Source of the DNA: Microcaldota archaeon | GTDB taxonomy: Archaea; Micrarchaeota; Micrarchaeia; Norongarragalinales; UBA8480 | Length of the DNA stretch: 64,000 nucleotides | Direction: 5' to 3' | Assembly: GCA_023247085.1 (NCBI GenBank) | Contig: JAHFHC010000002.1 | Coordinates: 35,683-99,682 of the forward strand | Notes under the pieces: model-generated | The model's input: only the letters and a program-made list of their open reading frames with translations | Databases searched by the model: none | What the model was told of the DNA's origin: nothing | Part shown: positions 4,998 through 56,653 of the stretch, in pieces | How the letters are laid out: every line of letters starts with the position of its first letter | Numbering within the stretch: the stretch's first letter is position 1 | Position numbers and translations under genes: made by a program

Positions 4998-5492
4998 TTG
5001 ATTGCTGTGGTTTTGATTCGCCGTGCTAAAAAGTCAGATAAGCGCCAATTGTTGGGGCTGTCAAGAGAGTTTCACAATTCAACGCGCTTGAATCGCCGCA
5101 TTGTATCTGCGAAATTATTTCAATTACTTGCTCGGGATTTCAAACATTATCATAAAGAAAAAATAGCTAAGTACACTAACGCCGACGAAGATAACGCGAC
5201 TTTTGTAGCTGAAGAAAACGGAAAGTTGATTGGGTTTATTTATGGCCGAATAGAAGAAGCCCAAAAAAAGAAGTTAAAGCGAATTGGGTACGTTGCAGAT
5301 TGGTTTGTGCTTGAAGGATTTAGGCACAAGGGTATCGGAAGGAGATTGTGGGCTCAACTAATAATTTGGTTTAAGTTAAAGAAATGCGATTGCATTGAAC
5401 TCAAAGTCTATCCGGACAACGAACCATCAAAGAAAATATACCGAAAGCTAGGCTTAATTGAAAAAGATATTATAATGGGAAAAAAACTCTGA
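4998..5492 (+). CDS. GNAT-family N-acetyltransferase
   Basis: This 164-residue protein carries a GNAT acetyl-CoA site, VLEGFRHKGIGRRLWAQLI, and then NEPSKKIYRKLGL near the C-terminus. No ATG starts the frame: TTG at 4998 or GTG at 5007 are the candidates. An A/T-rich box (TTATAT near 4974) lies about 25 bases upstream, which would make the mRNA nearly leaderless. It diverges from cca across a 44-base gap. Substrate unknown. Confidence 0.82.
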   Translation: MIAVVLIRRAKKSDKRQLLGLSREFHNSTRLNRRIVSAKLFQLLARDFKHYHKEKIAKYTNADEDNATFVAEENGKLIGFIYGRIEEAQKKKLKRIGYVADWFVLEGFRHKGIGRRLWAQLIIWFKLKKCDCIELKVYPDNEPSKKIYRKLGLIEKDIIMGKKL

Positions 5493-13053: not shown

Positions 13054-14316
13054 TTATTGTGGCGTAGGTGAAGGGCTTTCAAGTTTAGGATGCCACTCTT
13101 CCAAAGCGCGTTTTAAGTCGGCATTATAAGCCTTTCCAGCAAGTAAAATTAATTTGCGTGCCGCAGCTAAATCCGCCCCCTCTAGCCTTCTACCCATAGA
13201 AATTGCTTTTGCATAATGACGAGCAGCTATTTCAGGATTCCCTGATTTTAATTGCGTGCGTGCGTCTACAATTGCATTTTTCGCTTCCCTTGCCAATCCT
13301 TCTTCAGTAGCTTCGATTTCAATTGGTTTGCTTCCTTTTTTTTCATGTTCTGTTTCAACATTGGCAGTGCCAATGGGACTTGCAGGAGTAATGCCAGCTG
13401 CGGCTCCACTTGTGCTGTTTGGCTCAATAGTGTAGTTAGTCATAATAGCCGCTATTTTATTTTTTTTTACATATGCCCCTAGTTTCTCTTCCCAGTTTTT
13501 GCCAGGCATTTTTACTAATTCAAACAACGGTACGTGTACCGGTCTATTAGAAGTTGTGTCAAGTTTTGCCTCTCCGGTTGTTTCTGGAGTATCACTAACT
13601 TCATATTCATCTTTTGGTGGTTTAGGTTCTACAAATGGGTGAATTGGTACCACTTCTCTTTTACCAAAGTTTCTTAATTCAACTTTAGTAGGTTTAGGCA
13701 ATTGATTCATGGCAAATGGTACGCCGAAAGCTAAGAGGCCGCCTAAAGTTAAGGCACCTAATGCATGTCTCACTAGTCCCGGTTTACCTCTCTTTTTTGG
13801 TAACAACGCAGAGGCCGCTCTTAATGCAACTGCTTCTTCTTTTTGCGTTCTAGGTCGCTGCTTCGGCTTTGAAATTTTAGTGGTATCAGGCGCTGGTTTT
13901 GACTCTTTTCGAGTTGGTTTAGGTGCTGTAGGTACTGAAGGTGTTGGCTTTGTTTTCTCTTTGACTGCAACTACTGCGGCTTGCTTCAAAAAGTGGCTCA
14001 ATGTAGGTGCTTCAAAATGAGTTTTTAAACTACGTAAAGCTTCTTTAGCATCGGTTCCACTTGTGATTTTTCTTTCATGGTGTCTAATAAGTTCTCCTGT
14101 TCTACTCAAAAATGCTTCAGTTTTTTTTGCAGTGGTTGCTTCTTTATGCAAACGCGCCATGTGGCTGCCGAGTTCCATTAATCTACTTGCAAACTTAGAA
14201 TCAGTTTTTGCTCGTTTTGCAAATTCAGTAAATAGGTGACCTTTACTTGTTTGTAAAAAACCGTAGCGTGGAATTTTCTTTTCCTCGTAAAATCGCTTTG
14301 CATCTTCTCTTCTCAT
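13054..14316 (-). CDS. Single-pass membrane protein with FY-R-G N-terminal domain and TPR-like C-terminus (paralog 1)
   Basis: The protein has 420 residues. Residues 1-115 form a helical domain beginning RFYEEKKIPRYGFLQTSKG. A Pro/Lys-rich low-complexity linker follows, then one transmembrane segment (LGALTLGGLLAFGVPFAM, about 187-204). The outer part holds a short conserved block (PLFELVKMPGKNWEEKLGAY). The C-terminus has a helical repeat-like region (ARTQLKSGNPEIAARHYAKA) resembling a TPR unit. It is adjacent and homologous to the gene at 14331. Its N-terminal domain also resembles that of the PP2C phosphatase at 55.6 kb. Function unknown. Confidence 0.7.
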   Translation of the reverse strand: MRREDAKRFYEEKKIPRYGFLQTSKGHLFTEFAKRAKTDSKFASRLMELGSHMARLHKEATTAKKTEAFLSRTGELIRHHERKITSGTDAKEALRSLKTHFEAPTLSHFLKQAAVVAVKEKTKPTPSVPTAPKPTRKESKPAPDTTKISKPKQRPRTQKEEAVALRAASALLPKKRGKPGLVRHALGALTLGGLLAFGVPFAMNQLPKPTKVELRNFGKREVVPIHPFVEPKPPKDEYEVSDTPETTGEAKLDTTSNRPVHVPLFELVKMPGKNWEEKLGAYVKKNKIAAIMTNYTIEPNSTSGAAAGITPASPIGTANVETEHEKKGSKPIEIEATEEGLAREAKNAIVDARTQLKSGNPEIAARHYAKAISMGRRLEGADLAAARKLILLAGKAYNADLKRALEEWHPKLESPSPTPQ

Positions 14317-14330
14317 TTTTTATCTAGTAC

Positions 14331-15461
14331 CTATTTTGTTTTTTTAAGTTTTTGTTTTGTTTCTTCAACTTTAGCCGCTGGTTTTTGTAGCAAACGATGC
14401 CAGTCTTGCATAGCATGTTGAATGCTATAGCTTGAATTTGGCTCAGCGATGTTCATCAACGCGTGTGCATGCTCTAAGTCGCTTCCGGTTAATTCTCTAC
14501 CAAAATAAATTGCGCGCGTGTAATGTAACGCCGCCATATCGTAGTTTCCTTTATCCCACTGACTGCGTGCTTTGTTTATTGCCATTTCTGCTCGTTCGGT
14601 TAATGCTTTTTCAGTTGGGTCTATATCTGGATTTGTAGTTTCTTTTGGCACATATTTCGTTGACACATCAGTTGTGCCGCTTGCGCTTGCAGTGGTGGGC
14701 ACTGGTTTGTTTAAGTCGGCTGTGTTATTTGGAGTTGCAGTTGTGAGCACTACCTCGCTTGGTTCAATTGGTTCCTGCGAATAATCCAATATTGAAGCTT
14801 TTACGCCGTTTTTGCTTGAATACGCTGCGAGTTTATCCGCCCATGTCTTGCCGGGCATTTTTACTATTTTAAACAACGGTACCTCTATTTGTGGCGTGTA
14901 AATTGTTGATTCAATTTGAGGAGGTCTAATTAATTGATTTTCAGGAGTTTTCATTGCTTGGTGCATACCAAATAGTCCACCTGCAATTGCGCTGGCAGTT
15001 ATTGCTAAGGCGCCGAATGCGCGCACTAGCCGTTTTGGTTTATTTCTCTGTTGTGGTAAAGCTGCGGTTGGTGTGGCTTTTTCTTGTTTGGCTGGTGTGA
15101 TTGTTGCAATTGCTGTTTGTTTTAAGAATTCATTTAATGTGGGTGCTTTAAAGTGTCTATTTAGGCGTCGTAATGCATCTTTAGCATTCGTTCCTTTTGT
15201 CATTGTGGTTTCGTGGTGTTTTACGAGTTCAATTACTTTTTGTTTAAAGAAGTCGGTTTTGTCTGTAGTAGTTGCTTCTTTGTGTAGGCGTGCTATGTGG
15301 GCGCCTAGTGCTGTTAAATCTTTTGAGAATTGTGGGTCAGTCTTTCCTTGTCTTGCAAATTCAGTAAATAGGTGACCTTTACTTGTTTGTAGAAGGCCGT
15401 AACGTGGAATTTTCTTTTCCTCGTAAAACTGCTTTGCTTCGTTTACTTTCATTTTTCTCAA
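14331..15461 (-). CDS. Single-pass membrane protein, tandem paralog 2
   Basis: This 376-residue protein has the same architecture as its neighbour: QFYEEKKIPRYGLLQTSKG N-terminal domain, linker, transmembrane segment (FGALAITASAIAGGLFGMH), block PLFKIVKMPGKTWADKLAAY, then a TPR-like tail (ARSQWDKGNYDMAALHYTRA). The linker and outer loop have diverged most; the N-terminal domain, the MPGK block and the tail are kept. The genes are 14 bases apart in the same direction, so they arose by tandem duplication and are probably co-expressed. Function unknown. Confidence 0.7.
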   Translation of the reverse strand: MRKMKVNEAKQFYEEKKIPRYGLLQTSKGHLFTEFARQGKTDPQFSKDLTALGAHIARLHKEATTTDKTDFFKQKVIELVKHHETTMTKGTNAKDALRRLNRHFKAPTLNEFLKQTAIATITPAKQEKATPTAALPQQRNKPKRLVRAFGALAITASAIAGGLFGMHQAMKTPENQLIRPPQIESTIYTPQIEVPLFKIVKMPGKTWADKLAAYSSKNGVKASILDYSQEPIEPSEVVLTTATPNNTADLNKPVPTTASASGTTDVSTKYVPKETTNPDIDPTEKALTERAEMAINKARSQWDKGNYDMAALHYTRAIYFGRELTGSDLEHAHALMNIAEPNSSYSIQHAMQDWHRLLQKPAAKVEETKQKLKKTK

Positions 15462-33587: not shown

Positions 33588-34230
33588 ATGCGTGATTTTT
33601 GACAATGATGATACGCTCTACTATGCGCCAGGCATAGGGAAAGAGGCAGTTGGTTACATGGTTGAATTTGCTGCAAGTGCTTTAAATATCTCAGTTGAAG
33701 ACGCGGCGCTTGAACGTGTTAAAATAAAGCGAAAATATGGCGTTGACTCTACTCCCTTTGCTTTTAACCAAAAGTATGGAATTGATTTTGATGAAATGAT
33801 AAATTTTGCATATTCGCAAATTGAGCTAAAAAAATACGGGATTAGTAAAAATGATAGTTTAATCAAAACGTTGTCTGCATTAAAGGTTCCAAAATTTATA
33901 TTAACAAATAACACTGCGGAATTCGCTTCACTAATATTGTCTGAATTGGGTGTTGCTAATTTATTTAAGCGCATTTTTGGCTGCCGTGAAGTAGATTTTA
34001 AACTTAAACCCGCGCCTGAAGCATATTTGCGTGTACTTAATTTTGCAAATGTAAATGCAAGTGAAGCGGTTATGGTAGACGATCGAGTTGATTTTCTCTT
34101 AGGCGCTGCTCAGTTGAGGATGCGCACTATATTATTCTCCCGCGACATGAGCTTTCATCCGCTTTGTGGCGTTGATTTTGTGATTCGAGATTTAAAAGAA
34201 TTGCCGAAGTTACTAAGTGAATTGAAATGA
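33577..34230 (+). CDS. HAD hydrolase, pyrimidine 5'-nucleotidase-like
   Basis: This 217-residue protein starts at GTG 33577, six bases after GGAGGTGA. Motif I is VIFDNDDTLYYAPG (DxDxT intact), motif II FILTNNTAEFA, motif III Lys in FKLKPAPEAY, motif IV VMVDDRVDFLLGA. The DNDDTLY form is typical of Sdt1/Phm8-like nucleotidases. Its stop overlaps the start of a nucleoside hydrolase, suggesting nucleotide then nucleoside breakdown in one operon. Confidence 0.88.
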   Translation: MAVKCVIFDNDDTLYYAPGIGKEAVGYMVEFAASALNISVEDAALERVKIKRKYGVDSTPFAFNQKYGIDFDEMINFAYSQIELKKYGISKNDSLIKTLSALKVPKFILTNNTAEFASLILSELGVANLFKRIFGCREVDFKLKPAPEAYLRVLNFANVNASEAVMVDDRVDFLLGAAQLRMRTILFSRDMSFHPLCGVDFVIRDLKELPKLLSELK

Positions 34231-35144
34231 AACGTAAATTAGTGATAATTGATACTGATCCAGGTCACGATGACGCTCTTGCTTTGATGCTTGCATTGCG
34301 AAGTAAAAAATTGCGAGTACTTGCGGTTACTACGGTAGCTGGAAATTCCACCATTCAAAATACGACTCGAAATGCCCGGTTTGTGCTTAAGTTGCTTGAC
34401 GCGCAAAATATTCCAATTTATTCGGGCGCTTCAAAACCACTTTGTCGTAAATTAGTGAAGGCAGTTGTACATGGAAAGAATGGTTTATCTGGTTTAAAGT
34501 TTAAACAAAAAAGTAATTTAACCAATAACGCTGCCGAAAAGATAATCTCAATTGTTCAACAAAATGCTGGCGTGACTATAATTACTTTGGGTCCATTGAC
34601 CAACTTAGCTCAAGCTATTTTGAAAAAGCCAAGTGTCATGTTGAAAGTGAAGAAATTTGTTATTATGGGTGGTGCGATTAAAGTTCCTGGAAATAAAAGT
34701 AGAGTGGCTGAGTTTAACTTTTTTGTTGATCCAGAGGCCGCGGATATAGTGTTTAAATTTCCAGTTGCAAAGATGCTCATTCCACTCGATGCAGGTAATC
34801 CTATTTTCCTAAAAAACTCGGATTTTCGTAAGATAAGGGGGTCACTGAAAAAACCAATATTGCAGCTTATGAATTCGTATATGGGAAATCTCTATAACTA
34901 CATAAAGGTAAAACGTGCGCTTATATATGACGCATTAGCGGTATATTCACTAATAAAGCCCAGCGCTTGTAGAAAAAAGCGATATAATATTGTAATAGAA
35001 ACAAAAGGAGAAGCTACGCGTGGCATGTCAGTTACCGAGCTGAGGCAGTTCAAAAAAACGCTACCAAATGCAACTGTAGTTGAAAAAATTTCAGCAAACG
35101 CTTTTAAGCAGGCGTTTATAAATTCTCTTTCAAAAAGGGGATAA
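34227..35144 (+). CDS. Inosine/uridine-preferring nucleoside hydrolase
   Basis: This 305-residue enzyme hydrolyses nucleosides to base and ribose. The calcium-binding Asp cluster IIDTDPGHDDALALMLAL is complete. NSTIQNTTRNARFVLKL, FVIMGGAI and FNFFVDPEAADIVF follow as in the IUNH family. YDALAVYSLI supplies the late Asp. It overlaps the HAD gene by 4 bases (ATGA). With that nucleotidase and the AMP phosphorylase at 16 kb it points to active nucleotide salvage. Confidence 0.93.
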   Translation: MKRKLVIIDTDPGHDDALALMLALRSKKLRVLAVTTVAGNSTIQNTTRNARFVLKLLDAQNIPIYSGASKPLCRKLVKAVVHGKNGLSGLKFKQKSNLTNNAAEKIISIVQQNAGVTIITLGPLTNLAQAILKKPSVMLKVKKFVIMGGAIKVPGNKSRVAEFNFFVDPEAADIVFKFPVAKMLIPLDAGNPIFLKNSDFRKIRGSLKKPILQLMNSYMGNLYNYIKVKRALIYDALAVYSLIKPSACRKKRYNIVIETKGEATRGMSVTELRQFKKTLPNATVVEKISANAFKQAFINSLSKRG

Positions 35145-35147
35145 CCA

Positions 35148-35921
35148 ATGCGTTTGAATTTACATCCATATTCAATTGAAGTTATTGAAAAACCCGGAAG
35201 TTTACCCCCTAGGCGTAGAGAAGTGCTTCTTCGCTCTGTTGTTCGAATAGCACAAGATGCATTTGGAAAAACAACTCGCGAAACCATGGAACGTCGTGTT
35301 TTACCGGCAGATGAGATTTTGGTAGTAAGGAAGGGGCGTAGGATAATCGGCTACTCTTTAAATAGATATTTTAATTTGCCTACTGGAAGAATGCTTTACC
35401 TTTCTGGATCTGCAGTTGAAAAGCAACATGAAGGAAAAGGGCTTTACGGTGCATTGCGACCACTATCCATTCTATTAGCCTGTAGGGACAATCGTTTTTC
35501 ACATATTGCGACTAGAACCCAAAATCCAATAATATATGCTTCCCTTGCAAAACTTGGTCTTCATCCTATAGAAGGACGAAAAGTGCCAAAAGAAATAAGT
35601 ACGGCTGCAATACACTTAGCAGCTGAAATCAGTCCGGGCAAGGCGTTTGATTCTGCTTCTCTAGTTATAAAACAGGCATTTAGGGGATCAGCAAGTGTAG
35701 CTTCTCCAAAGCATCACGATGAAAGATTCAATACCTTTGTTTCAACAAGAATAAATGAAGCGCAAGGCGACGCGTTGTTACAAGTGGGAATGCTGGACAG
35801 ACGGAAAGCCCGAGTACTTTTCCTAACTGCAGCTGATAAAATAAGCAAAAAAACAGCTATAGACGCACAAAAATTAGTTGAGCGACTCACTGTTGTTGGT
35901 AAAAGTGCGTTTGATTCATAA
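35148..35921 (+). CDS. GNAT-fold acetyltransferase-like protein
   Basis: This 257-residue protein has GNAT-like features in residues 52-140: LPADEILVVRKGRRIIGYSL, YLSGSAVEKQHEGKGLYGAL (acetyl-CoA loop) and TRTQNPIIYASLAKLG. The C-terminal 100 residues are helical and not assigned. A partial, broken copy of the same gene follows immediately (35922-36246). It lies 3 bases after the nucleoside hydrolase. Confidence 0.7.
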   Translation: MRLNLHPYSIEVIEKPGSLPPRRREVLLRSVVRIAQDAFGKTTRETMERRVLPADEILVVRKGRRIIGYSLNRYFNLPTGRMLYLSGSAVEKQHEGKGLYGALRPLSILLACRDNRFSHIATRTQNPIIYASLAKLGLHPIEGRKVPKEISTAAIHLAAEISPGKAFDSASLVIKQAFRGSASVASPKHHDERFNTFVSTRINEAQGDALLQVGMLDRRKARVLFLTAADKISKKTAIDAQKLVERLTVVGKSAFDS

Positions 35922-36246
35922 ATGGCCTGCGAAGATATTCAGCGCCACACTATTCCGATAAATGCGTTTTTCGTGATTAGAAAAAAAGTAATTGCTTTTT
36001 TGAGCAATAAATATTTAAACTTGCCAACTGGCCTGTTATTCTACCTCGCAGGAACAAGTGTACATGCTGATTACGGGCGCGTTGGACTTTATAGTTTGCT
36101 GTCAGGTTAACCTCGAAAATTGAGGTGGCTTGTTGATGGTTGGTTTAATGGATCTTAGGAAAGCAGAGCAAGCTTTTCTCGCCGCTGCAGGGAAAGTAAG
36201 CTCAATTGCCGCTGGCAAAATCGTTGAACAATTGCGACACTTGTGA
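35922..36246 (+). pseudogene. Decayed tandem copy of the preceding GNAT-like gene
   Basis: A 62-codon frame (35922-36110) aligns with residues about 45-107 of the upstream protein, e.g. KYLNLPTGLLFYLAGTSV against RYFNLPTGRMLYLSGSAV. After its stop and a TGA at 36121, a different frame from about 36124 to 36246 reads LLMVGLMDLRKAEQAFLAAA. That matches the parent's LLQVGMLDRRKARVLFLTAA near residue 215. So the copy has lost its N-terminus and about 100 central residues and carries stops. Confidence 0.75.
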
Positions 36247-36286
36247 AATAAAGGTATTTAATTGCGAGTTTGCTATTATTTCCAAT

Positions 36287-37288
36287 ATGCAAGAAGAGTC
36301 AATTACGCACAAGCGAGGAACTAGGCTTCACATTACTGAGCTTGATCCGGAAGATCCAAATTTTGAACACCACGTTGCTGATTCATGGAGAAACATAAAG
36401 GCTAGTTATCAGGAGTATCCCTATGTTGAAGTGGGAGATCCAGTGCATGTTAGGCGAGAAATAGCCGCTGGTCGGCTGAGGACTTTTCTAGTGCGTGAAG
36501 ATAACCGAGTGGTTGGAACCGCAGCAATGGTTTCAAATGGTCCAGTCTGGGAATTCGGAAGATTGGCAGTTGACCCGAGCCACCGTGGAAAGGCTTACGG
36601 TCAAGCGCTTGTCTGGCACAGATTATCTGCGGCTGCAGGTGACCCGGTTTATACTACTGCACGCGCAGCTGAACCAGCCACTACGCATAATATCTTCAAG
36701 GCGTTTGCAACTACGAAGGGCGGAGTGCATATCCTCGGCGTTGCGCCATATGCTTTGGTTAATCACAAACAAGAGTTTTTAATCGAGATGGGCGGAAATC
36801 TTGGAAAAGCATCTGACTTCCAGCACCCGCGCTTTACCCCTGCAGAATGGGCTTTTCTCGGGCCATTTTTAAAAGGGCGGAGAACGGCATCATTTACTCA
36901 CGTAAGGCCAAGCAATGTTAAAATTGGCGACATTGTAAAAGTTTCAGAGCACAGTAAATACGGCGTAGCTGAACCAATTGGAAACAAAGCAATTCGGGAT
37001 GTAATAACCGCTGCACGGCGCAACTCGCTTGTAAACTTCTTAATGCTTCGCGTTCCGCTTAGAGACGAGCATTTGCCACTACGTGAAGCTTTGGTGCGTA
37101 ATGGCTTTATTCCATCAGCAATTGGACCCAAGGGAAACTATATTATCTATGGCTTAGTCACGAAACCGAAACGCAAGGTAAAGCTAGGTGAAGTTAACCT
37201 ACCAAGCAGCTTCGACGAGCCGCACGTTGCGCCAGTTAAAGATGCAATTATGAAAATAGTTGAAGCTTACCACGAGCAGCTAGCGTAA
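36287..37288 (+). CDS. GNAT acetyltransferase, long form
   Basis: This 333-residue protein starts at MQEESITHKRGTRLHITEL. The acetyl-CoA motif is LAVDPSHRGKAYGQALVWHR (about 100-119), followed by NIFKAFATTKGG. The second half (residues 180-330) may be a degenerate second acetyltransferase unit, since FLMLRVPLRDEHLPLREALVRNGF has the strand-helix ending of GNATs. An upstream frame extension overlaps the decayed gene and is not used. Substrate unknown. Confidence 0.78.
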   Translation: MQEESITHKRGTRLHITELDPEDPNFEHHVADSWRNIKASYQEYPYVEVGDPVHVRREIAAGRLRTFLVREDNRVVGTAAMVSNGPVWEFGRLAVDPSHRGKAYGQALVWHRLSAAAGDPVYTTARAAEPATTHNIFKAFATTKGGVHILGVAPYALVNHKQEFLIEMGGNLGKASDFQHPRFTPAEWAFLGPFLKGRRTASFTHVRPSNVKIGDIVKVSEHSKYGVAEPIGNKAIRDVITAARRNSLVNFLMLRVPLRDEHLPLREALVRNGFIPSAIGPKGNYIIYGLVTKPKRKVKLGEVNLPSSFDEPHVAPVKDAIMKIVEAYHEQLA

Positions 37289-37297
37289 CTCGTGCTT

Positions 37298-38395
37298 TCA
37301 AATCTTTTTGCACAGTTCAGTGTAGAACTGCTCAACTTGTCTCAATTGTTCTAGTTGCATTTTTTCGTCTGGAATGTGTAGTTTCATGTTACCTGCCCCT
37401 ACGTTTATAGTTGGAATGCCTGCTTTTGAATAGTATCGCGCGTCGCTTGCGCCGAGCTTGTGCAAGTAGCCCGATATTGGTGTGCCGGTTACTTTTTCCA
37501 GCGTTGCCTGCGCGGTTTTGATAAATTCAGATTTTTCATCGCTAATCCAACCAGGCTCATTTTTTTGTATGTTTAATTTAACACTTTCTGGCAGTAGCTG
37601 CGTCAATTTTGCAGTGAATTTTTCTATTTTGATATCCGCAGGAAGCCTGAAGTCAATTGTTGCCTTGCATTGAAATGGAACTACGTTTTCAGCTGTTCCG
37701 CCTGAAATCAACGTAGTGTTCATAGTTGGATGTGAAAAAACATATTCGTGATCGTGCGATTTCAGTTTAAACTCTTTTTCAAGCGCAACCAGCGCCGTTG
37801 CCATTGTATGCGCTGCATTTTTTGTATCTTGTGGGTAAGCCGCGTGCCCCCCTTTTCCCTCTGCAGTTAGTTCAATTTGCAACCGCGCCTTGTGTCCAGT
37901 TGCTAATTGCATTGCAGTCGGCTCGCCGATAACTGCATAGTTTGCAGTTATTCCTTTTGCAATGGTTGCGCCTGTACCATTGTGGCCGCCAACTTCCTCG
38001 TCACCAACCGCGATTAGTATAATCTCACTGCTTAGGTTTTGTTTTGAAATTGCAATTGCCGTGTTAATCATGGCGGCTAAATTACAAGTCATGTCACATG
38101 CACCCAAGCCCCATAGTTCCCCTTTTTTCACAACTGGGTCAAACGGGTCAACAGTCCACTGATCAGATGGGGGTACGGTGTCATAGTGACCGTTTAGAAT
38201 TATCTTTCGACTATTTTCTTTTCGGCCTTTAGTTGAGCCTATTACGCTTACAACTCCATTGCTAGAAATTAGTTCAACGTGTAAATCGTTTTTTTCCAAG
38301 TAGGTTTTAATTAAGTCAACTGCCGCACTCTTATCTGCGCTACCTTCATACTTGTGTAGTTTAATTAATTCGCTTGAAAGTTCAATTGTTTTCAT
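37298..38395 (-). CDS. M20-family peptidase/deacylase (ArgE/DapE/ACY1-like)
   Basis: The protein has 365 residues. Metal ligands are in ILNGHYDTVPP, LGACDMTCNLAAM and AVGDEEVGGHNG; the dimerisation-domain His is in GKGGHAAYPQDTKNA and the C-terminal His near MKLHIPDE. It hydrolyses an N-acyl amino acid or small peptide. A GNAT gene ends 2 bases upstream, so an acetylase and a deacylase are encoded together. A second M20 protein is at 40.2 kb. Confidence 0.92.
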   Translation of the reverse strand: MKTIELSSELIKLHKYEGSADKSAAVDLIKTYLEKNDLHVELISSNGVVSVIGSTKGRKENSRKIILNGHYDTVPPSDQWTVDPFDPVVKKGELWGLGACDMTCNLAAMINTAIAISKQNLSSEIILIAVGDEEVGGHNGTGATIAKGITANYAVIGEPTAMQLATGHKARLQIELTAEGKGGHAAYPQDTKNAAHTMATALVALEKEFKLKSHDHEYVFSHPTMNTTLISGGTAENVVPFQCKATIDFRLPADIKIEKFTAKLTQLLPESVKLNIQKNEPGWISDEKSEFIKTAQATLEKVTGTPISGYLHKLGASDARYYSKAGIPTINVGAGNMKLHIPDEKMQLEQLRQVEQFYTELCKKI

Positions 38396-38397
38396 TA

Positions 38398-38964
38398 TTA
38401 CAACCGTCTTGCAAAATACTTGCGTTGAGTAATAGTGCTGCTAGCTACGCGCCCAGATCCACTGTGCTCAAATAACATTTTATACCCCATGCTCCTGGCT
38501 AGCTTTTCTCTTGCAGGATGAATTGTGCGCAGTGCAACCGAATCGTAACCTAACTTTTTACCGTATTCGTGCCTTGCCTCTGCAAGTTTTCGACCAATTC
38601 CTCTATTTTCATGGTCAGGGTGAACTGCTACAAAGTCAAGGTAGTAAGTTTTTCCAAATGGCTTGAATGCAGCTTGGTGTTCTTTTGGCAAGTGCTCTCT
38701 TCCCCATTCGCGCATAAACTCACTAAATGCATGACTTCCACCAACGCCAATCACTTGGCCATTTTCCATAGCTATGAATATTTTCCCGTGTCGTTTTTTG
38801 TTATTCTCTCGAAAAACATTTTCAACAACACTTTCAATTGTCCACGGGTCATTATACATAGAACCGGGTCCGAAACGCTTTACAAATATTGCAGCCGCTT
38901 GGCTAGTTAATTTTCTATTTCGTAAATTCAATGCCTTTACTTCCATTTTCATCAACTTTTCCAC
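38398..38964 (-). CDS. GNAT-family N-acetyltransferase
   Basis: This 188-residue protein has the motif A segment FVAVHPDHENRGIGRKLAEA and then IHPAREKLARSMGYKML. Several Met codons near the start (38964, 38946) leave the N-terminus open. It is co-directional with and 2 bases from the M20 peptidase. Substrate unknown. Confidence 0.85.
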   Translation of the reverse strand: MEKLMKMEVKALNLRNRKLTSQAAAIFVKRFGPGSMYNDPWTIESVVENVFRENNKKRHGKIFIAMENGQVIGVGGSHAFSEFMREWGREHLPKEHQAAFKPFGKTYYLDFVAVHPDHENRGIGRKLAEARHEYGKKLGYDSVALRTIHPAREKLARSMGYKMLFEHSGSGRVASSTITQRKYFARRL

Positions 38965-39013
38965 AGGGTAAATTCTTTTGCCTTGTTATATTTTTAACTT
39001 TTTAACGAAACGT

Positions 39014-39024
39014 TTTTATTTAAC
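39014..39024 (+). promoter_or_regulatory. TATA-like box for a leaderless small gene
   Basis: TTTTTATTTAA lies about 27 bases before the ATG at 39046, the spacing that places transcription start on or beside the start codon of an archaeal leaderless message. Confidence 0.4.
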
Positions 39025-39045
39025 CCTTTGGACAAATAGTAGGTC

Positions 39046-39159
39046 ATGAAAGTTAACGCTATTGTGGAAATGCTAGTAGCATATACCCTTAGCTTAAGCG
39101 CTTTCATTACAACCTTCTGGCATATGCTTTTGGGCATTCGAGCCGGGATTTTGAGATAA
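39046..39159 (+). CDS. Possible 37-residue membrane peptide
   Basis: ATG 39046 to TAA 39157-39159 encodes MKVNAIVEMLVAYTLSLSAF followed by ITTFWHMLLGIRAGILR, a single amphipathic/hydrophobic helix. A TATA-like box sits at leaderless distance. Nothing else explains this gap between two divergent genes. No homologue recognised. Confidence 0.4.
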   Translation: MKVNAIVEMLVAYTLSLSAFITTFWHMLLGIRAGILR

Positions 39160-39191
39160 ACTCTTTATAACTTTCTCAAAAGGTGCCTGCT

Positions 39192-40232
39192 ATGAATGCT
39201 TTAATTATACCTACTACTTGCAAGTTGAATTGCGCTGCTAGCGTAGAAAATGCAAAAATTACGTTTGCAGCTTCGCGTGCGGTTTCTTCCCTTAAAGGTA
39301 TGCAATTGGAATCCATAGATAGTTTTGAAGCTGGGCAGTTAGTTGCAGTTAAGGTTGTTAGAAATAACAGCGGAAAACTTATTCGACTAAACGATTTAAG
39401 CACTTATGCTCCCATTGCTGGCGATGTTTTAGTTTGTCTAATTGGTGCAAATGGCTCGTTTAAAATTGAAGTTATAACTGTGCCAACTGCTGTCAATGAA
39501 TGGGTGGTGGTTAATCGTGGCGGTTTAGTTGGCCAACCCATGTTTGATGTCGGTGAGTCGAGTTTAGTTGTCAGTTACCTTGGAAACCTTGTCAAAGACA
39601 ATATGCCGGTTAAATTAACTGACAAATTGCCTGCAGAATACAAGTTTTATAAGCCAATAATTGCAGTGGTGGGCACTGACACTAATACTGGCAAGACGGT
39701 TACGACCGCTAAAGTGATCAGCGAGCTCAAGCAAATGGGGTTATCTGTAGGTGCTTGCAAATTAACGGGCATATGTGGAGACGATATATTATCTTACAAA
39801 GATGCTGGCGCAGATGAACTCGTTGATTTTACTGATGCGGGTTTACCTTCTACAATTTGTACTGAAGAAACTGCAGTTAATGCCGCATTAAAATGCATAT
39901 CTAGTTTACAAAACAACGACGTTATAGTTGCGGAATTTGGATCTACGTTGATTGGCGGTCACCCTGTGTTATCGATATTGAAAGCTTTTAATTTAAGTAA
40001 TTTGAAAGTAGTTGTTTGTTGTTCGGACGTACCTGGAGCAATAGGTGCAATGTTTTTGCTTGCAAGTGGAGCAAATGGCTTGAGGCCTTCACTATTTTCA
40101 GGGCTAGTTGCAAATAGCGAGCTAGCTTGTGCTAAGGTGTTAGAAACTACTGGCGTGCCATGTGCTTCTGCTGCTAAATTCCTTTTGCGTACAATGATTT
40201 TTCAAGGTGTTACAAATGTTGAATTGTGTTGA
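39192..40232 (+). CDS. DUF1611-like P-loop protein (DgcN-like)
   Basis: This 346-residue protein starts at ATG 39192 with AGGTG six bases upstream. An N-terminal beta-rich domain (residues 1-155) precedes a P-loop domain: IAVVGTDTNTGKTVTTAKVI, CKLTGICGDD, ADELVDFTDAG and IVAEFGSTLIGGHPVLS. This order resembles DUF1611 proteins such as the D-glutamate N-acetyltransferase DgcN, and more distantly dethiobiotin synthetase. It overlaps the following M20 gene by 17 bases. The resemblance is by eye. Confidence 0.65.
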   Translation: MNALIIPTTCKLNCAASVENAKITFAASRAVSSLKGMQLESIDSFEAGQLVAVKVVRNNSGKLIRLNDLSTYAPIAGDVLVCLIGANGSFKIEVITVPTAVNEWVVVNRGGLVGQPMFDVGESSLVVSYLGNLVKDNMPVKLTDKLPAEYKFYKPIIAVVGTDTNTGKTVTTAKVISELKQMGLSVGACKLTGICGDDILSYKDAGADELVDFTDAGLPSTICTEETAVNAALKCISSLQNNDVIVAEFGSTLIGGHPVLSILKAFNLSNLKVVVCCSDVPGAIGAMFLLASGANGLRPSLFSGLVANSELACAKVLETTGVPCASAAKFLLRTMIFQGVTNVELC

Positions 40233-41304
40233 ACTTGCTAAGCAACTGGCAGCTATTCCTAGTTTTCAAGGTAATCGTGAGGTTTCTTTGTTTTTGAAAA
40301 ATTACTTGGAAAAAGAAGGTATTTCTGTTCAAGTTATTGAAAAAAATAATGTACTGAATGTAGTTGCGCGTACTGGAAAGCGGGACGGCAGATCCCTATT
40401 GTTAAACGGTCACACTGATACTGTTCCACCTCAACTTGGTTCGCAAATGCCAGTAAGTACAATTCGAGATGGAAAGCTCTTTGGCTTAGGCACCGTTGAC
40501 ATGAAGGCAGGAGCAGCTGCAATGACTTGCGCTTTTCTTGAACTAGCTAAAAAAGAAACTGAGCTTAATGGCGAAGTGATTTTAGTCCTTGTTGGAGATG
40601 AAGAAAATGGCGGAGCAAATGGAACAAAAGCAACACTAGAGGTGGGGGTTAAAGCAGATTACGTAGTTATAGGCGAACCAACTAATCTTAAAATTTGCCT
40701 TGGACAGAAAAGCGCATTGCAATTAGAAATAAGCGCTAATGGCAACGCACGCCACGCAAGTCGAATAAGGCCAGATGACAATGCAGTGTCTAAAGTTACA
40801 AATGTGCTGTACTCATTAGAAAAAGCTTTTCCAGTTCCAGTCGGGCCAGATGACTTCTTGTTCAATAAAACAACTATGAATATAGGTACTGTCTTTGGAG
40901 GTACTGCTGCAAATGTAGTTCCAGATAAATGTACGGCTACTATTGACTTTAGATTTTCTCCATTGTCTTCCAAAGAAGAGTTAACCAATCAAATTATGAC
41001 TAATTTAAATGAAGCCATAACTGTAAAAGAGAGGTTTACTGCGCTTGGCTGGTCACTTGATAAAAACACGCCTTATTGTCGTGCGCTTGTTTCTACAATG
41101 AAAAAAGTTGGAATCAAAGAAGAATTTGTTTACAAATTTGGTTCAAATGATGCTAGATTCTATAATGCAGAAGGTTGCCAAGTCGTTAATATTGGCCCTG
41201 GAAATAATTTACTTTCACATACGGGCAAAGAAGAAGTCGAAGTAAATCAAATAGAACAAGCTAAGCAAGTATATTTGAAGCTAGCGCAAGAGTTATTAAA
41301 ATAA
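40216..41304 (+). CDS. M20-family peptidase/deacylase, second copy
   Basis: This 362-residue protein starts at ATG 40216 behind AAGGTG. Metal ligands are in LLNGHTDTVPP, LGTVDMKAGAAAM and VGDEENGGANG; the bridging His is in NARHASRIRPDDNA. It is homologous along its length to the M20 protein at 37.3 kb (for example NGHxDTVPP and the shared IGEPT). Translational overlap with the DUF1611-like gene suggests the two act on one N-acylated substrate. Confidence 0.91.
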   Translation: MLNCVELAKQLAAIPSFQGNREVSLFLKNYLEKEGISVQVIEKNNVLNVVARTGKRDGRSLLLNGHTDTVPPQLGSQMPVSTIRDGKLFGLGTVDMKAGAAAMTCAFLELAKKETELNGEVILVLVGDEENGGANGTKATLEVGVKADYVVIGEPTNLKICLGQKSALQLEISANGNARHASRIRPDDNAVSKVTNVLYSLEKAFPVPVGPDDFLFNKTTMNIGTVFGGTAANVVPDKCTATIDFRFSPLSSKEELTNQIMTNLNEAITVKERFTALGWSLDKNTPYCRALVSTMKKVGIKEEFVYKFGSNDARFYNAEGCQVVNIGPGNNLLSHTGKEEVEVNQIEQAKQVYLKLAQELLK

Positions 41305-41320
41305 GTCGAGTAAGTAAATT

Positions 41321-42952
41321 ATGACATCTGTAAAAGTGCCACGAAGGGGATTTGGAAAAATACAATTACTTTCTGCCGAAGCTATGTTTGGACAAAATGG
41401 AATTTGGCACGCAAAAGATACTGCGGAGCTCTCTGCAGCAATGGCTACTCACAAAGATGCACTACAAGAACTTCATCGCCAGCCACACTTATCTCCTGCG
41501 GTTAAAGATAAATTAACTGAAGCGCTTCGTTATTCTGCTCACGGGCAAGCGATTCCTCCGCATATTGCATCTCAATTAGTTTCAATGCTTAATAGCGCAG
41601 CGTTTAGAACAGCAGGTAGTTCAACTATGCAGTGGACTGCGTGGACAGCTTCAAGAAACCCCAAAGCGCCCGCAATTTCAGTAAAGAAATCTCCAGTTCC
41701 GGTGGTGTCTACTTTACCGCAAGCAGATGTTTATGTTCAACTTGGTAATAAGCTTTTTAGAACTTTGAGAAGTACAACTCGCAAAGTTTCTTCTGCAGTT
41801 GTTGGCGCAATTGACGAAGCAAGGCGGCGCCATCCAAAAGCAACTGTAGATGAACTTAGAGAACTAGCCGCAACTGTAGCAAGCGAGGGGGTTTTTGCAC
41901 CTTCTAGAACAAAAGCTCTTACAAAAGTCGACTACAAATTTGTAAAAGGGCCAAAAGGCAAAGTCCGAGCTGCGATTATAGATGTTAGTTCTGAATTACT
42001 TGGGCTTGGTTTTTCTGATGATATTTTGAAAAGTTATAAATTGCAATCCGGCTTATCTAAGAGTTTAGCTGGTGCATTTTTACAAATAGATGCACAAGAG
42101 CGAAAGAAGCTTCCAAAGAACGTTGCAATTATGGTGCGTGACAACCAACTTGCTGGCCAGTTTAAGGGAGATATTGAATCGCTTAGAGGGCACCTTGAGG
42201 CAATACTTAGGGAACATCACGGCAAAGCCGGTGGAGATGTTGAAGTAAGTGTAGTGCTTCAACCGAATGTTCAAAAACGTGCAGAAAATATCCCGAGAGC
42301 CGCAGCGCATGGCGTTCCGTTTACTGGTTTAAAAGTACAGCGAGTAGGTGATGGTAAAAGCGTTTCTCCTGAATTAATCATACGCTATGGCCGGTTCCCG
42401 TTATCTACTGAGGCAGATGCTGAGCTTGAAAAACAAGGAGTAAAAGTTTTAGATCATAGTGATTTCGTTATTGCTGCAGATAAAACCGTTAATGGCCGCG
42501 TCACTAATTTGCTTAAGCTAGAGCCGATGAGTGCTTCTACTGTTTTTGTACCGCGCAATGCCGTTTCTCAAAATAGTTTGTTTTCAACTGCTTCTGACAA
42601 AGAACTTGATGCAATATTGGAGCGAGCTAAAGTTGAGAATTGGAGCGGGGTAGTAGTTAAACTTCCAACAAAATTAACACTAGGCAAAACTGGCCAAGAG
42701 GCAGTCACTGCACATTTCGTTAACCCGCATTCGCCCCTTCAAGTAGATGCATTGAGAAAAGCTATTCGAGATATACGTTTTGATGCAAGTGCTGCACCTG
42801 ACGCTGAAAAGAAAAAAGCAAAATTAGCATTCGAGGAATTAGCAGTTTCAAGCCTCCCCGAATTAGGTGGCAGGGGTTTAGAACTAAGAACACTTGCAAT
42901 GCCTAGATTTAAAGTGTCAAAAATAACCACAATAGTTGAACCTAATCACTAA
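41321..42952 (+). CDS. Large unknown protein with possible ATP-grasp-like region
   Basis: The protein has 543 residues. Residues 1-230 are mostly helical without a recognised family. From about 345 on the pattern LIIRYGRFPLSTEADAELEK, GVKVLDHSDFVIAADKT, MSASTVFVPRNAV and WSGVVVKLPTKLTLGKTGQ recalls the start of an ATP-grasp fold (carboxylate-amine ligases). The later Mg-binding residues cannot be placed confidently. It follows the M20 gene by 16 bases and ends inside the convergent helicase gene by 11 bases. Confidence 0.55.
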   Translation: MTSVKVPRRGFGKIQLLSAEAMFGQNGIWHAKDTAELSAAMATHKDALQELHRQPHLSPAVKDKLTEALRYSAHGQAIPPHIASQLVSMLNSAAFRTAGSSTMQWTAWTASRNPKAPAISVKKSPVPVVSTLPQADVYVQLGNKLFRTLRSTTRKVSSAVVGAIDEARRRHPKATVDELRELAATVASEGVFAPSRTKALTKVDYKFVKGPKGKVRAAIIDVSSELLGLGFSDDILKSYKLQSGLSKSLAGAFLQIDAQERKKLPKNVAIMVRDNQLAGQFKGDIESLRGHLEAILREHHGKAGGDVEVSVVLQPNVQKRAENIPRAAAHGVPFTGLKVQRVGDGKSVSPELIIRYGRFPLSTEADAELEKQGVKVLDHSDFVIAADKTVNGRVTNLLKLEPMSASTVFVPRNAVSQNSLFSTASDKELDAILERAKVENWSGVVVKLPTKLTLGKTGQEAVTAHFVNPHSPLQVDALRKAIRDIRFDASAAPDAEKKKAKLAFEELAVSSLPELGGRGLELRTLAMPRFKVSKITTIVEPNH

Positions 42953-45023
42953 GAAACATTTTATGTAGGGTAGTATCATTTGTCGATGTTTTTCCGCTTG
43001 TAATGCTCTTAATTTCTTGTTTAGATCGCTTTGCGTAATCCTCAACGGTCTTTATTCCTGCGTTGTATAGTTTTCTTCCTCGTACTCTTCCAATTCCGCG
43101 TATTGTGCAAATGTCAAGTAACTCTTCTTTTATTCCGTGTTTTATGCGTCGGCGTAAACGTTTTGCTTCTTGATAAACACTTGTTTGATTTTCAAGAAAT
43201 GCAAGTTCGCGCAATGCGTAGCAAAGCCATTCGGCGTTTCGCTTGCGTGTTAGCAGCATTCCTGGTGGGGTTTCAAAATCTGTAAGCATTTGTTCTTCAG
43301 TTGCTTCATTAATCCAGCCGTTTAGCACTTTAGCTGTTTTGAATTTGTCTAAAGCTTCGGCATCCCACGCTGGAAAATCTTCTAGCAAGTTATACGCGTC
43401 GTCCCACAGTGTTTTTTCTTCACCTTTTTTTACGTATATAAGTGGACGCATTTCAGTTGCTTCACAAATCGCATAAAGATAGTCAATTGTTTGCCTGGGG
43501 ATTTGTTTTTTGATAAACGAGAGGAACTTCGCGCCTGTCAAAGGGTCTATGTATAATTGTGCTATTCGCCTACCAACAGGCGTAGCTGCCAAACGGCCAC
43601 TTTTTTCTCGAATAAAGTCAAACTCTTTTAACTCTCCACAAATGCGGTCAATAACTCCCGCTAGTTGACCGCGGTCACCGTATTGGAACGCGTAGAATGT
43701 AGAGTCAAAGAACTTGTGTAATTCCTCTATTGTTGAAACATAGTTTGAAGAAATAAGCGAAAGAGAATGAAAGCGAATAGCAGTTTCATTTGCGAGTTTA
43801 CTGTACAAGTCCTCTGGTTTTCCGTAAACGTACTTCTCCCACACTTCCCCAACATCTTTTTTACTGCTTAACATAACTCCGATTCCAACATCGTCGTAAT
43901 TTGGCCTACCGCTTCTACCTAACATTTGTTGTACTTCCATTGCAGGTATAAATTCTGAAAAGTTGCCATTAAACCGCTTTAAATCTTTTACAATCACCCA
44001 TGTAGCCGGATAATCAATGCCCATTGCAAGTGTAGTTGTACACACAATTGCCTTAATTGTCTTTTCGTGTTTGAACCCATCTTCAATTAATTGACGTTGT
44101 TTTGGTGTAATTCCAGCATGGTGAAACGCAACTCCATTTGCCATGCACGCAGAAAGCTCTTTGCACTGGGTTGTTGGAGTTGGCAACGCTTTCAAGGCGC
44201 GTTTACTCATATCCGCCAGTTGCGCTTCGTCCCCCTGCTGCAAAAACTTCTTTGTAATTGCGCCAAGTTCACGCGCAGTTGACTCAGCGCCACGCCTGCT
44301 AGCTACAAAAACCAGCGCTTGCCCATTTTGTTTAAATCGCAATGCGTTTTCCAACACGTCGTGCAATTGTTTTTTATCACTTACTTGAATGCTTGCTAAT
44401 GCATTGTCTTTAAACTGCACTTCTTTTTCACTGCTAACCCCAACAATTAACTTCGTTGGTCTATACTCGCTGTAAAACAACTTTGCATTTAGCCACTCGG
44501 CCATTTCACTTGCATTTGGAATAGTTGCGCTTAACCCAAGCAGCTTTTTTTTAGCAAGATGAAGCTTCGTCATAACGACTTCCAGCGTTGCGCCACGTTG
44601 ATCATCGCCAATCAAGTGGCACTCGTCGAACACAACTGCGTTGATTTCCTCCATAAACTGTGGCGAATGTGTCAAAATTGAATCCAGCTTCTCGGAAGTT
44701 AAAATCGCAACATTGGCGTCACCGATCTTTTCATCATCGCTATCTAACTCTCCAGTTGAAATCCCGACTTTCAATTCAAAAACAGCCAACTTTTTAGTAA
44801 ATTCATTATACTTTTCACTTGCCAATGCACGCAACGGAACAACATACAGCGTCTTCTTACCATGTTCAAAATGATTTAAGATCCATAACAACGACACAAG
44901 CGTCTTTCCACTAGCAGTAGGTGAACTAAGCACAGCTCGGTCACTTTCAAATAAACCCTCTTGCGCTACTTTGTTTTGCATTTCGTTTAGCTTAGAATAG
45001 CCAAGCTTTGCCAAATTTTCCAT
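42942..45023 (-). CDS. hel308: Ski2-like DNA helicase, Hel308 type
   Basis: This 693-residue SF2 helicase probably acts in replication-fork repair. Motif I is SSPTASGKTLVSLL, Ia VVPLRALASEK, II VFDECHLIG, III GLSATIPNA, IV-VI include VFVASRRGAESTA, TTTLAMGIDYPA and QMLGRSGRPNYD. The winged-helix and ratchet domains follow. A helix-hairpin-helix ends the protein (TIRGIGRVRGRKLYNAGIKTVED). It overlaps the downstream Nudix gene by a single base. Confidence 0.92.
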   Translation of the reverse strand: MENLAKLGYSKLNEMQNKVAQEGLFESDRAVLSSPTASGKTLVSLLWILNHFEHGKKTLYVVPLRALASEKYNEFTKKLAVFELKVGISTGELDSDDEKIGDANVAILTSEKLDSILTHSPQFMEEINAVVFDECHLIGDDQRGATLEVVMTKLHLAKKKLLGLSATIPNASEMAEWLNAKLFYSEYRPTKLIVGVSSEKEVQFKDNALASIQVSDKKQLHDVLENALRFKQNGQALVFVASRRGAESTARELGAITKKFLQQGDEAQLADMSKRALKALPTPTTQCKELSACMANGVAFHHAGITPKQRQLIEDGFKHEKTIKAIVCTTTLAMGIDYPATWVIVKDLKRFNGNFSEFIPAMEVQQMLGRSGRPNYDDVGIGVMLSSKKDVGEVWEKYVYGKPEDLYSKLANETAIRFHSLSLISSNYVSTIEELHKFFDSTFYAFQYGDRGQLAGVIDRICGELKEFDFIREKSGRLAATPVGRRIAQLYIDPLTGAKFLSFIKKQIPRQTIDYLYAICEATEMRPLIYVKKGEEKTLWDDAYNLLEDFPAWDAEALDKFKTAKVLNGWINEATEEQMLTDFETPPGMLLTRKRNAEWLCYALRELAFLENQTSVYQEAKRLRRRIKHGIKEELLDICTIRGIGRVRGRKLYNAGIKTVEDYAKRSKQEIKSITSGKTSTNDTTLHKMFLSD

Positions 45024-45463
45024 TATAATAATTTGTCGCGGTAGAGTTTTAGAAAGTATGGCATTGTAGAAATAACTGGTTCTGGCATTGAATTGAGGTC
45101 AAACCAGCCAAAATCTTCAAACTTGTGCGGCTCTCCGTTTCTCGCTTTTTCCCTATCGACCAGCACTTTGAAATCCAAAGCAACCCAGTGAGTTTTCTTT
45201 CCATTATCCACTCTGTGCACATCTCTATAGCCTAAAAATTCGTACCCAATTACATCTGTGCAGTATTCTTCTTTAATTTCTTTTTTCAAACAATCCTCTA
45301 TCTTTTGCCCAAAATCCAGCGCACCGCCGCCAATGTCCCAGCGTCCATGTTCATCTCTACAATTTTGACTACGCTTAGCCATGATGAATTTGCCTTTACC
45401 ATCGTGACAAAAGTAAACAATTGCAACGCCAACATAATCAAAACCTTTTTTTGCTTCGCTCAT
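45023..45463 (-). CDS. Nudix hydrolase, intact tandem copy
   Basis: This 146-residue protein has a divergent Nudix box: WDIGGGALDFGQKIED and KEIKEEYCTDV, with Gln in place of the first Glu and Lys for Arg, while the metal-binding EE pair is kept. The long conserved EFLGYRDVHR and GKKTHWVALDFKVLVD strands are shared with the next gene. Start ATGAGCGAAG overlaps the stop of the upstream, frameshifted copy. Confidence 0.85.
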   Translation of the reverse strand: MSEAKKGFDYVGVAIVYFCHDGKGKFIMAKRSQNCRDEHGRWDIGGGALDFGQKIEDCLKKEIKEEYCTDVIGYEFLGYRDVHRVDNGKKTHWVALDFKVLVDREKARNGEPHKFEDFGWFDLNSMPEPVISTMPYFLKLYRDKLL

Positions 45464-45890
45464 TTTAACTTATCTCCATATTGTTTGAAAAACTTCGGAA
45501 ACTGAGAATGAATATTCTTTGGCAAATTATCGAGCGTAAACCATTTTATTTCGTTGAACTTATGTGGCTCACCATTAGAAACTGTTTTTGGATCAACTAA
45601 ACACTTAAAGTAAAGCGCAATCCAATGTGTTTTCTTTCCCTCATGCTCGCGGTGTACATCGCCATAACCAAGAAATTCATGCTTCAAAACTTCTGTGCAA
45701 TACTCTTCCTTAATTTCTTGTTTTAACCGATCAATAATAGCGTCTCCAAACTCAACTGCACCGCCACCAATATCCCAATTGCCATGTTCATCGCGGCAAT
45801 TCTTGCTGCGTAACCCCATCAAAAAACGGCCATTCCCATCATGGCAAAAGAAAGAACTGTAACGCCTACATGATCAAAACCTTTTTGCAT
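45460..45890 (-). pseudogene. Nudix hydrolase copy broken by a one-base frameshift
   Basis: ATG 45890 begins MQKGFDHVGVTVLSF, matching KKGFDYVGVAIVYF of the intact neighbour. The frame then runs to a stop. One base shifted, the reading FCHDGNGRFLMGLRSKNCRDEHG-like continues unbroken to 45460; here only its first part is quoted. The break lies near 45850 in CTTTCTTTTGCC. It may be a true mutation, a sequencing error at a T-run, or programmed shifting. The intact part alone would be a 120-residue fragment starting MMGLRS. Confidence 0.7.
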
Positions 45891-55597: not shown

Positions 55598-56653
55598 TTA
55601 CTTCTTCGGCATTTTTACTTTTACAACTAATGCTGTGCTGTTATCGGGTCCACCGCGTTTATTGGCTGTTTTAATTAAATACTTGATTAAGTCAGTATGC
55701 GTGATTTTCCCGCGCGCGTATTTAACGAGCGCATTTTTAATTTCTCTATCAGTTACGCGCTTGTTTATCCCATCGCTGCATAAAAAGAAAACGTCGCCGT
55801 TCTTTGCTTGAACTGTTTTATACTCTGGCTCAATTCCGTTTTCTCCACCAACCGCTTGCAGTAACTGGTTTTGTACTCCTGGTAAACTGTGGTCAGTTGT
55901 TAATTGTGACAATTTATGCGCTAGTATGCCTTTACGTAAGAGATAGACCCGCGTGTCTCCAACGTGCACAACGTGTGCCTTTCCGTCTTTTTCAATATGC
56001 AGTGCCGTTAAAGTGGTTCCCATCATTAACTTGTGCTTAGCTTCATCGGTATAATAAACTCCTTTTCGCTCCTCTGCCTTTATCCCTCTCTTAGTTTCCT
56101 CATTTTTTTCAACTACTGCTTGATGCGCTTTATGTATACCCTCAAGAAGTGTGCTTGGTTCTTTTGTATCAAAATGATTCGCAAGAGCAGCTACTGCTGT
56201 ACTAGCCGCTTTATAGCCATTAGCGTGTCCGCCCATTCCATCTGCAACTACGAACAACTGCTTTTCTGGGTGTATTAAACAAACGTCGTCATTACTTGAA
56301 CGCTTCATTCCCTTGTGAGTAGCCCCTGTGCATTCAAAGCTAATCCGTACTGGGTTAATATAATCGTCAAGCGCGTCTTTTGATGCAGTGTGCGTAAGTA
56401 AATGTTCAACTGCACTGCGATGTTTTCCAGCTGAATGCAGTTCAAGTGCTTTACTTATAACGTGTTTTACAATTAGGTCTCGCTGTGGTTCAAGTGCAGA
56501 AAATTGTCTTCCAATTGTCTGTAGCTCGTGGGTGCTTACTATTTTTCTATCGTGAAGTTCTTTTAACCCCGAACGTAACTTAACAGGTAACCAGCCCCAT
56601 CGTGCCATACCTATTCCGTCGTAGAACTCCCGTTCTCCAGATGCGTTCACCAT
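55598..56653 (-). CDS. PP2C-type Ser/Thr phosphatase with a novel N-terminal domain
   Basis: The protein has 351 residues. The PPM phosphatase core (about 105-351) has NDDVCLIHPEKQLFVVADGM and GGHANGYKAAS with metal Asp residues, VVHVGDTRVYLLRKG, QLTTDHSLPGVQ, FFLCSDGINKRVTD and RGGPDNSTALVVKV. Residues 1-105 are helical and begin EFYDGIGMARWGWLPVK, which aligns with the N-terminal domain of the two membrane proteins at 13-15.5 kb. It dephosphorylates protein Ser/Thr; partners unknown. Confidence 0.9.
   Translation of the reverse strand: MVNASGEREFYDGIGMARWGWLPVKLRSGLKELHDRKIVSTHELQTIGRQFSALEPQRDLIVKHVISKALELHSAGKHRSAVEHLLTHTASKDALDDYINPVRISFECTGATHKGMKRSSNDDVCLIHPEKQLFVVADGMGGHANGYKAASTAVAALANHFDTKEPSTLLEGIHKAHQAVVEKNEETKRGIKAEERKGVYYTDEAKHKLMMGTTLTALHIEKDGKAHVVHVGDTRVYLLRKGILAHKLSQLTTDHSLPGVQNQLLQAVGGENGIEPEYKTVQAKNGDVFFLCSDGINKRVTDREIKNALVKYARGKITHTDLIKYLIKTANKRGGPDNSTALVVKVKMPKK

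Follow-up and report, generated by a model that had tools for sequence, protein, structure and literature searches.

Two overlapping genes in a 64-kb stretch of Micrarchaeota DNA (referred to here as the window, meaning the whole of the 64,000 nucleotides analysed) may encode an enzyme pair that acylates an amino acid and then removes the acyl group again. The first gene (39192–40232, + strand) encodes a 346 amino acid protein, a candidate amino-acid N-acyltransferase, in which Pfam and NCBIfam scans and a family alignment show a SIMIBI-type P-loop domain. The second (40216–41304, + strand) encodes its partner, an M20 metallo-deacylase of the ArgE/DapE/LysK type. We give this reading a probability of about 0.42: both genes and their conserved 17-nucleotide overlap are established, as are an intact active site in the M20 enzyme, the Walker A and other family motifs of the P-loop protein and the association of its family with M20 genes, and we infer the acyltransferase reaction, the acetyl-CoA donor and the substrate. 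In the mechanism proposed, the substrate would be an acidic or comparable amino acid, to whose alpha-amino group the P-loop protein would transfer an acyl group, the donor most likely being acetyl-CoA and the group an acetyl group. The coupled M20 zinc enzyme would then remove the acyl group after intervening chemistry, or would serve to balance the reaction. If this is true, the pair constitutes a testable two-enzyme module.

The two open reading frames (ORFs) overlap by 17 nucleotides (40216–40232, + strand; ATGTTGAATTGTGTTGA, seen in the sequence at 40201–40240), and the genes are probably translationally coupled. The same overlap is found in a sister species of the same genus (G001; the window genome itself is G000), at positions 4606–4622 of locus L004. 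We propose an acylation/deacylation pair because the sister species retains the overlap and because relatives of the P-loop gene are found with M20 genes in another Micrarchaeota genome (G209) and in Priestia; in all, three settings show a family member associated with an M20 gene. That the P-loop gene is coupled to one M20 gene, and that the window encodes two homologous M20 deacylases, had been claimed in a preliminary description of the region, and both statements hold.

The window derives from a metagenome-assembled genome (MAG) of 892,562 bases that is 92% complete, and its proteins were scanned against Pfam and NCBIfam. The coupled M20 protein matches Peptidase_M20 (111.4 bits) and M20_dimer (65.7 bits). 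The second M20 deacylase (37298–38395, − strand) was characterised by Pfam, residue alignment and pairwise comparison. Both copies exceed 109 bits in Pfam, both have the catalytic and the dimerisation domain together with the metal ligands, and the metal/catalytic residues H65, D94, E128, E129, E153 and H334 are conserved in both. Against TIGR01910 (the ArgE/DapE family) they score 199–205 bits (205 for the coupled copy) versus a cut-off of 217.6. The coupled protein resembles ArgE, DapE and LysK in its full-length match and in its H, D, E, E, E, H metal/catalytic residues, but differs from them in falling under every equivalog cut-off and in being coupled to a P-loop gene. The two window paralogues are closer to each other (35% identity, 230 bits) than to the other M20s compared outside the genus, and the second therefore looks like a duplicate that arose in the same lineage. 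Among those compared, the best match of the window M20 outside the genus is an M20 from an arginine operon in G209 (135 bits).

The P-loop protein comprises an N-terminal domain of ~150 amino acids belonging to no Pfam family, followed by the SIMIBI-type domain. Its Walker A motif (GTDTNTGKT) occupies residues 161–169, encoded at about 39672–39698. Invariant in the family alignment are the GKT of Walker A, K190, G193, D198, a GA pair, the DAG at residues 215–217, T221 and E248.

The sister species also delimits the unit. On contig C131 of G001, Hel308, a 543 amino acid protein whose homologue adjoins the pair in the window (61% identity), the M20 protein (57%) and the P-loop protein (55%) are encoded in the same order, and neither the window's GNAT acetyltransferases nor the second M20 gene lies near the pair. 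In a further Micrarchaeota genome (G022), which has no P-loop homologue, the 543 amino acid protein has a homologue with other neighbours. For these reasons we take the functional unit to be the overlapping pair (39192–40232/40216–41304) and regard the GNATs and the second M20 as a local addition and as neighbours of that unit. The preliminary description had envisaged acyl on/off chemistry in a cluster of eight genes that included a peptide ligase along with the GNATs and two deacylases. Its observations are partly confirmed, in that the genes are real but do not form one system, with conservation confined to the four-gene block in one sister genome. Its interpretation is partly supported, by gene order, for two genes: the P-loop/M20 pair.

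Beyond the block, the G001 locus continues with a TrpY-family regulator (NF053754, 147 bits, under its cut-off), a transaldolase-like gene, 3-deoxy-D-arabino-heptulosonate 7-phosphate (DAHP) synthase, trpC, trpB and trpA, the last three identified by reading their sequences. This stretch beside the pair, from the TrpY-type regulator to trpA (L004 5839–11380), also includes a kinase-like gene.

A more specific proposal for the P-loop family comes from G209. At the end of contig C142 the gene order is argH-argG-P-loop-argC, the P-loop gene lying between argG and argC (L010), whilst contig C172 opens within argC, with its C-terminal part, and runs on through argD-argF'-argB-M20 (L078). The two argC pieces match complementary positions of ArgC (2–214 and 256–345, leaving a gap of ~41 codons), from which it appears that G209 has a single arginine operon split by an assembly gap. 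The argF' product is an N-acetylornithine carbamoyltransferase (NF003384, 364 bits, cut-off 288; 165 bits as ornithine carbamoyltransferase). As it stands, the operon corresponds to the acetylcitrulline route without a known N-acetylglutamate synthase (NAGS). Its argB encodes an acetylglutamate kinase lacking a GNAT extension, and LysW plus LysX, a GNAT-fused kinase and ArgJ are all missing from the operon. Nor did a search of the G209 genome find ArgJ, and of the three GNATs found there one is Elp3-like and two reach no NAGS cut-off. The only gene in the operon without an assignment is the P-loop gene, and the sole step still needed is N-acylglutamate formation. Most likely, therefore, and judging from sequence and context, the G209 P-loop protein would supply N-acetylglutamate for arginine synthesis, making it a candidate new NAGS. 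Its gene occupies the same operon step as the known synthases (ArgJ, the GNAT ArgA, the NAGS/kinase fusion PRK04531 and the LysW/LysX route), but the protein falls outside all of these families and has neither a GNAT nor an ArgJ domain.

For comparison, we looked at the surroundings of argC in about 36 further Micrarchaeota genomes. The argB/C/D operons with a visible start carry LysW and LysX (TIGR02144, 300–315 bits on two examples), ArgJ, or a GNAT-bearing NAGS/kinase; a few contigs are cut or unclear. ArgJ-type starts are seen in G192, G028, G014 and G001, and the PRK04531-type NAGS/kinase in G017, G130, G230 and G123 (in the last as a detached piece), with a kinase of equal length in G024. 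There are thus at least three first-step solutions within one phylum (L136–L172), and in G094 and G262 a second LysW-like protein is also present. Gaps at the first step of arginine synthesis, and a recently discovered synthase, have been described by GapMind (PMC7311316). First-step enzymes keep appearing in unexpected families, and predicting whether reduced DPANN archaea are prototrophic for arginine is difficult. Were the P-loop protein an N-acyltransferase, the gap in G209 would be filled and a likely function would be at hand for proteins labelled 'DUF1611' or 'dethiobiotin synthase'.

The arginine role cannot simply be carried over to the window. No argG, ArgJ, true argC or dihydrodipicolinate synthase (DHDPS) was detected above cut-offs in the window genome, its best ArgC match (54 bits) being aspartate-semialdehyde-dehydrogenase-like. 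Its amino-acid kinase matches read as an aspartokinase, a UMP-kinase-like protein and a weak third, none of them as argB. An arginine role for the pair in this genome was rejected accordingly, as was a role in lysine synthesis via diaminopimelate (DAP), DHDPS being absent from searches of both G000 and G001. With these genes missing from the window genome and with ArgJ serving G001, it would appear that in the window lineage the pair acts on a substrate other than those of detectable arginine or DAP-lysine synthesis. A wider scheme, which we advance more tentatively, is that the P-loop family is an unrecognised class of N-acyltransferases, neither GNAT nor ArgJ, which acts as the NAGS of the acetylcitrulline route in some Micrarchaeota (G209) and has been recruited in the window lineage, with its own M20, for another pathway of N-acylated amino acids.

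Outside the phylum, relatives of the P-loop protein are also borne on plasmids in Priestia, Rhodobacterales and Microvirga, and a further relative was found on an actinobacterial-looking contig filed as phage. No homologues of the P-loop or 543 amino acid proteins were found on viral contigs. In Priestia megaterium the cluster around the homologue includes an ornithine carbamoyltransferase (OTC), two ATP-grasps, an M20 (of another M20 subfamily) and a gene of the phosphoenolpyruvate (PEP)-mutase family. Carried on plasmid NZ_CP085446, with the family member at L012 7698–8759, it has the appearance of a phosphonate natural-product cluster and also encodes two thiamine pyrophosphate (TPP) enzymes and a luciferase-like monooxygenase (LLM) oxidoreductase. 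On Rhodobacterales plasmids (L011, L013, L087, L088), an alpha/beta hydrolase or hypothetical gene, the P-loop family gene and an ABC transporter form a conserved set, frequently with an S8 peptidase and a sigma factor close by. Because alphaproteobacterial members go with ABC transporters, function may vary from branch to branch of the P-loop family.

Several points weigh against an acylation/deacylation pair. The arginine link depends on one incomplete MAG (G209, 78%) and on an operon joined across a contig gap, and the G209 P-loop protein shares only 27% identity with that of the window. G001 holds the pair alongside an ArgJ arginine pathway, so the pair is not the NAGS there. Alphaproteobacterial and actinobacterial relatives adjoin ABC transporters and not M20 genes. 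Similarity to DUF1611, the family of the D-glutamate N-acetyltransferase DgcN, is confined to the P-loop, and the profile of the P-loop family does not retrieve DUF1611 structures.

The best surviving alternative, which we consider possible though doubtful, is an ATP-dependent activity of the BioD/CobQ type: the P-loop protein would be an amine-modifying enzyme or a ligase that activates a carboxylate or carbamate by phosphorylating it, with the M20 hydrolysing the resulting amide. The P-loop region also matches MobB and BioD, GTDTNTGKT conforms to the BioD-like GTxxxxGKT motif, a search with the protein retrieved a Desulfovibrio BioD, and the solved structures that come closest in profile searches are dethiobiotin synthetases (E 4e-5 to 8e-4), albeit through the P-loop alone. 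This likeness is confined to ~50 residues around the P-loop, however, in a protein of ~346 amino acids whose extra N-terminal domain and DAG and E motifs are peculiar to it. Gene context, with arginine or M20 genes nearby, also sets the family apart from BioD, MobB and CobQ, and what the G209 operon requires is an acetylglutamate-forming step, not an ATP-dependent ligation.

It is unlikely that the neighbourhood is due to chance, that is, that a P-loop/M20 pair of unrelated or regulatory function was acquired beside unrelated enzymes. Full-length relatives of the P-loop protein occur in 3 of 301 Micrarchaeota genomes (a count that leaves out most weak matches, which were ORFs of ~440–490 amino acids with ~40 aligned residues, consistent with GTPases of the signal recognition particle type), a distribution typical of horizontal spread, and the ABC transporter linkage in alphaproteobacteria fits such a view. 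Against this, overlap and gene order have been conserved between two species at about 56% protein identity, and the association with M20 genes recurs.

Still less probable, in our view, is salvage of D-amino acids as by DgcN, with the P-loop protein acetylating a D-amino acid (D-glutamate, for example) and the M20 deacetylating the product. The literature describes a DgcN–DgcA route that turns D-Glu into L-Glu (PMC10845958, PMC12363236), an analogy that also speaks for the acylation/deacylation pair. Like DgcN, the window protein has a P-loop domain behind an N-terminal domain and is proposed here to N-acylate an acidic amino acid, and its alphaproteobacterial homologues carry the PGAP label 'DUF1611 domain-containing', which likewise counts in favour of the main reading. 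The preliminary description had called the protein DUF1611-like and drawn the parallel with DgcN; at the sequence level neither DUF1611 membership nor, with it, identity with DgcN holds. The match to PF07755 (DUF1611_C) scores 21.0 bits, under the 25-bit cut-off, and is limited to 35 P-loop residues (positions 12–46 of the 201 in the profile). Residues 1–150 have no Pfam match, DUF1611_N included, at an E value of 1 or below. With only the Walker A region in common, the sequence does not support DUF1611 membership. An AlphaFold2 (AF2) model built from a two-sequence alignment is poor (predicted local distance difference test (pLDDT) 38); Foldseek matches it to SIMIBI folds, including the DUF1611 structure 2obn over 233–253 columns, to which we give little weight. 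A deacylase takes the place of the dgcA partner: G000, G001 and G209 each have one MR_MLE_C match, and the two examined (G000 and G209) are enolases, so that no DgcA-type racemase was detected in these incomplete MAGs. The G209 copy, moreover, sits within an L-arginine operon. No paper on point was found in the literature searched for DUF1611.

The joint pathway of the preliminary description, in which GNATs, both M20s, the P-loop protein and a 543 amino acid ligase make an N-acylated peptide or cofactor, is very improbable and, as a conserved unit, largely refuted: the genes all lie inside 8 kb and four of the genome's six Acetyltransf_1 matches are in the window, but they are on both strands, G001 retains only the four-gene block ahead of its TrpY, DAHP synthase and trp genes, the G022 homologue of the putative ligase stands apart from any P-loop gene, and that protein gives no significant ATP-grasp signal.

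The 543 amino acid protein (41321–42952, + strand) is lineage-specific and at best a neighbour of the pair, which it adjoins. It has no meaningful match in Pfam, NCBIfam, PADLOC or PHROGs, and its homologues are found only in G001 and G022 (34% identity in the latter), with a weak partial match in G288. The earlier suggestion that it is ATP-grasp-like finds no significant support in its sequence. No Pfam ATP-grasp match appears at E up to 1, the Priestia ATP-grasps by comparison scoring up to 106 bits, and hhalign against 20 LysX/RimK sequences gave a probability of 0.3% versus 77–97% for GshB, DdlB and L-amino-acid ligases and 0.1–0.5% for negative controls. By eye, residues 353–450 resemble the ATP-grasp linker and first strands (R..., DKT, VPR, VVVK), and hhalign aligned part of this region, but at that same 0.3%. 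Only a short stretch of the protein follows an ExR motif, too little to accommodate the remainder of the ATP-grasp core. Its AF2 model, from a two-sequence alignment, is weak (pLDDT 41) and gave no significant fold match.

Upstream of the pair, the preliminary description had listed three GNATs and a decayed copy, of which two GNATs and the remnant stand. The genes at 36287–37288 (+ strand, ~333 amino acids, convergent with the second M20 gene) and 38398–38964 (− strand, 2 nucleotides from the second M20 gene and on the same strand) match Acetyltransf_1 at 38.0 and 47.8 bits, above the cut-off of 20.7. For the 257 amino acid product of 35148–35921 (+ strand) a GNAT assignment is not established, its Acetyltransf_18 match in the Pfam scan reaching 12.9 bits (E 0.09) versus a cut-off of 22.7. 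The remnant at 35922–36110 (+ strand) is a decayed partial copy of that gene (tblastn, 37% identity over 59 amino acids, 50 bits), followed by in-frame stops. The other two of the four Acetyltransf_1 genes in the window lie at 1493–2026 (− strand) and 4998–5492 (+ strand).

According to the Pfam and NCBIfam scans, the cluster is preceded by a nucleoside hydrolase gene (34227–35144) and ends with that of a Hel308-type helicase (42942–45023, − strand). Next to the latter are two adjacent Nudix-like genes of near-alike sequence (45023–45463 and 45460–45822, − strand), probably a tandem duplicate. Elsewhere in the window, lineage-specific proteins (13054–14316 and 14331–15461, − strand; 55598–56653, − strand) have N-termini that are alike around a [RW]YG[FWL]L-like motif, the neighbours at 13–15 kb sharing 61% identity over 118 amino acids. 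A third such N-terminus sits ahead of a PP2C-like domain, and two further proteins of this type are encoded elsewhere in the genome (L084 8344–9153 and the start of L082).

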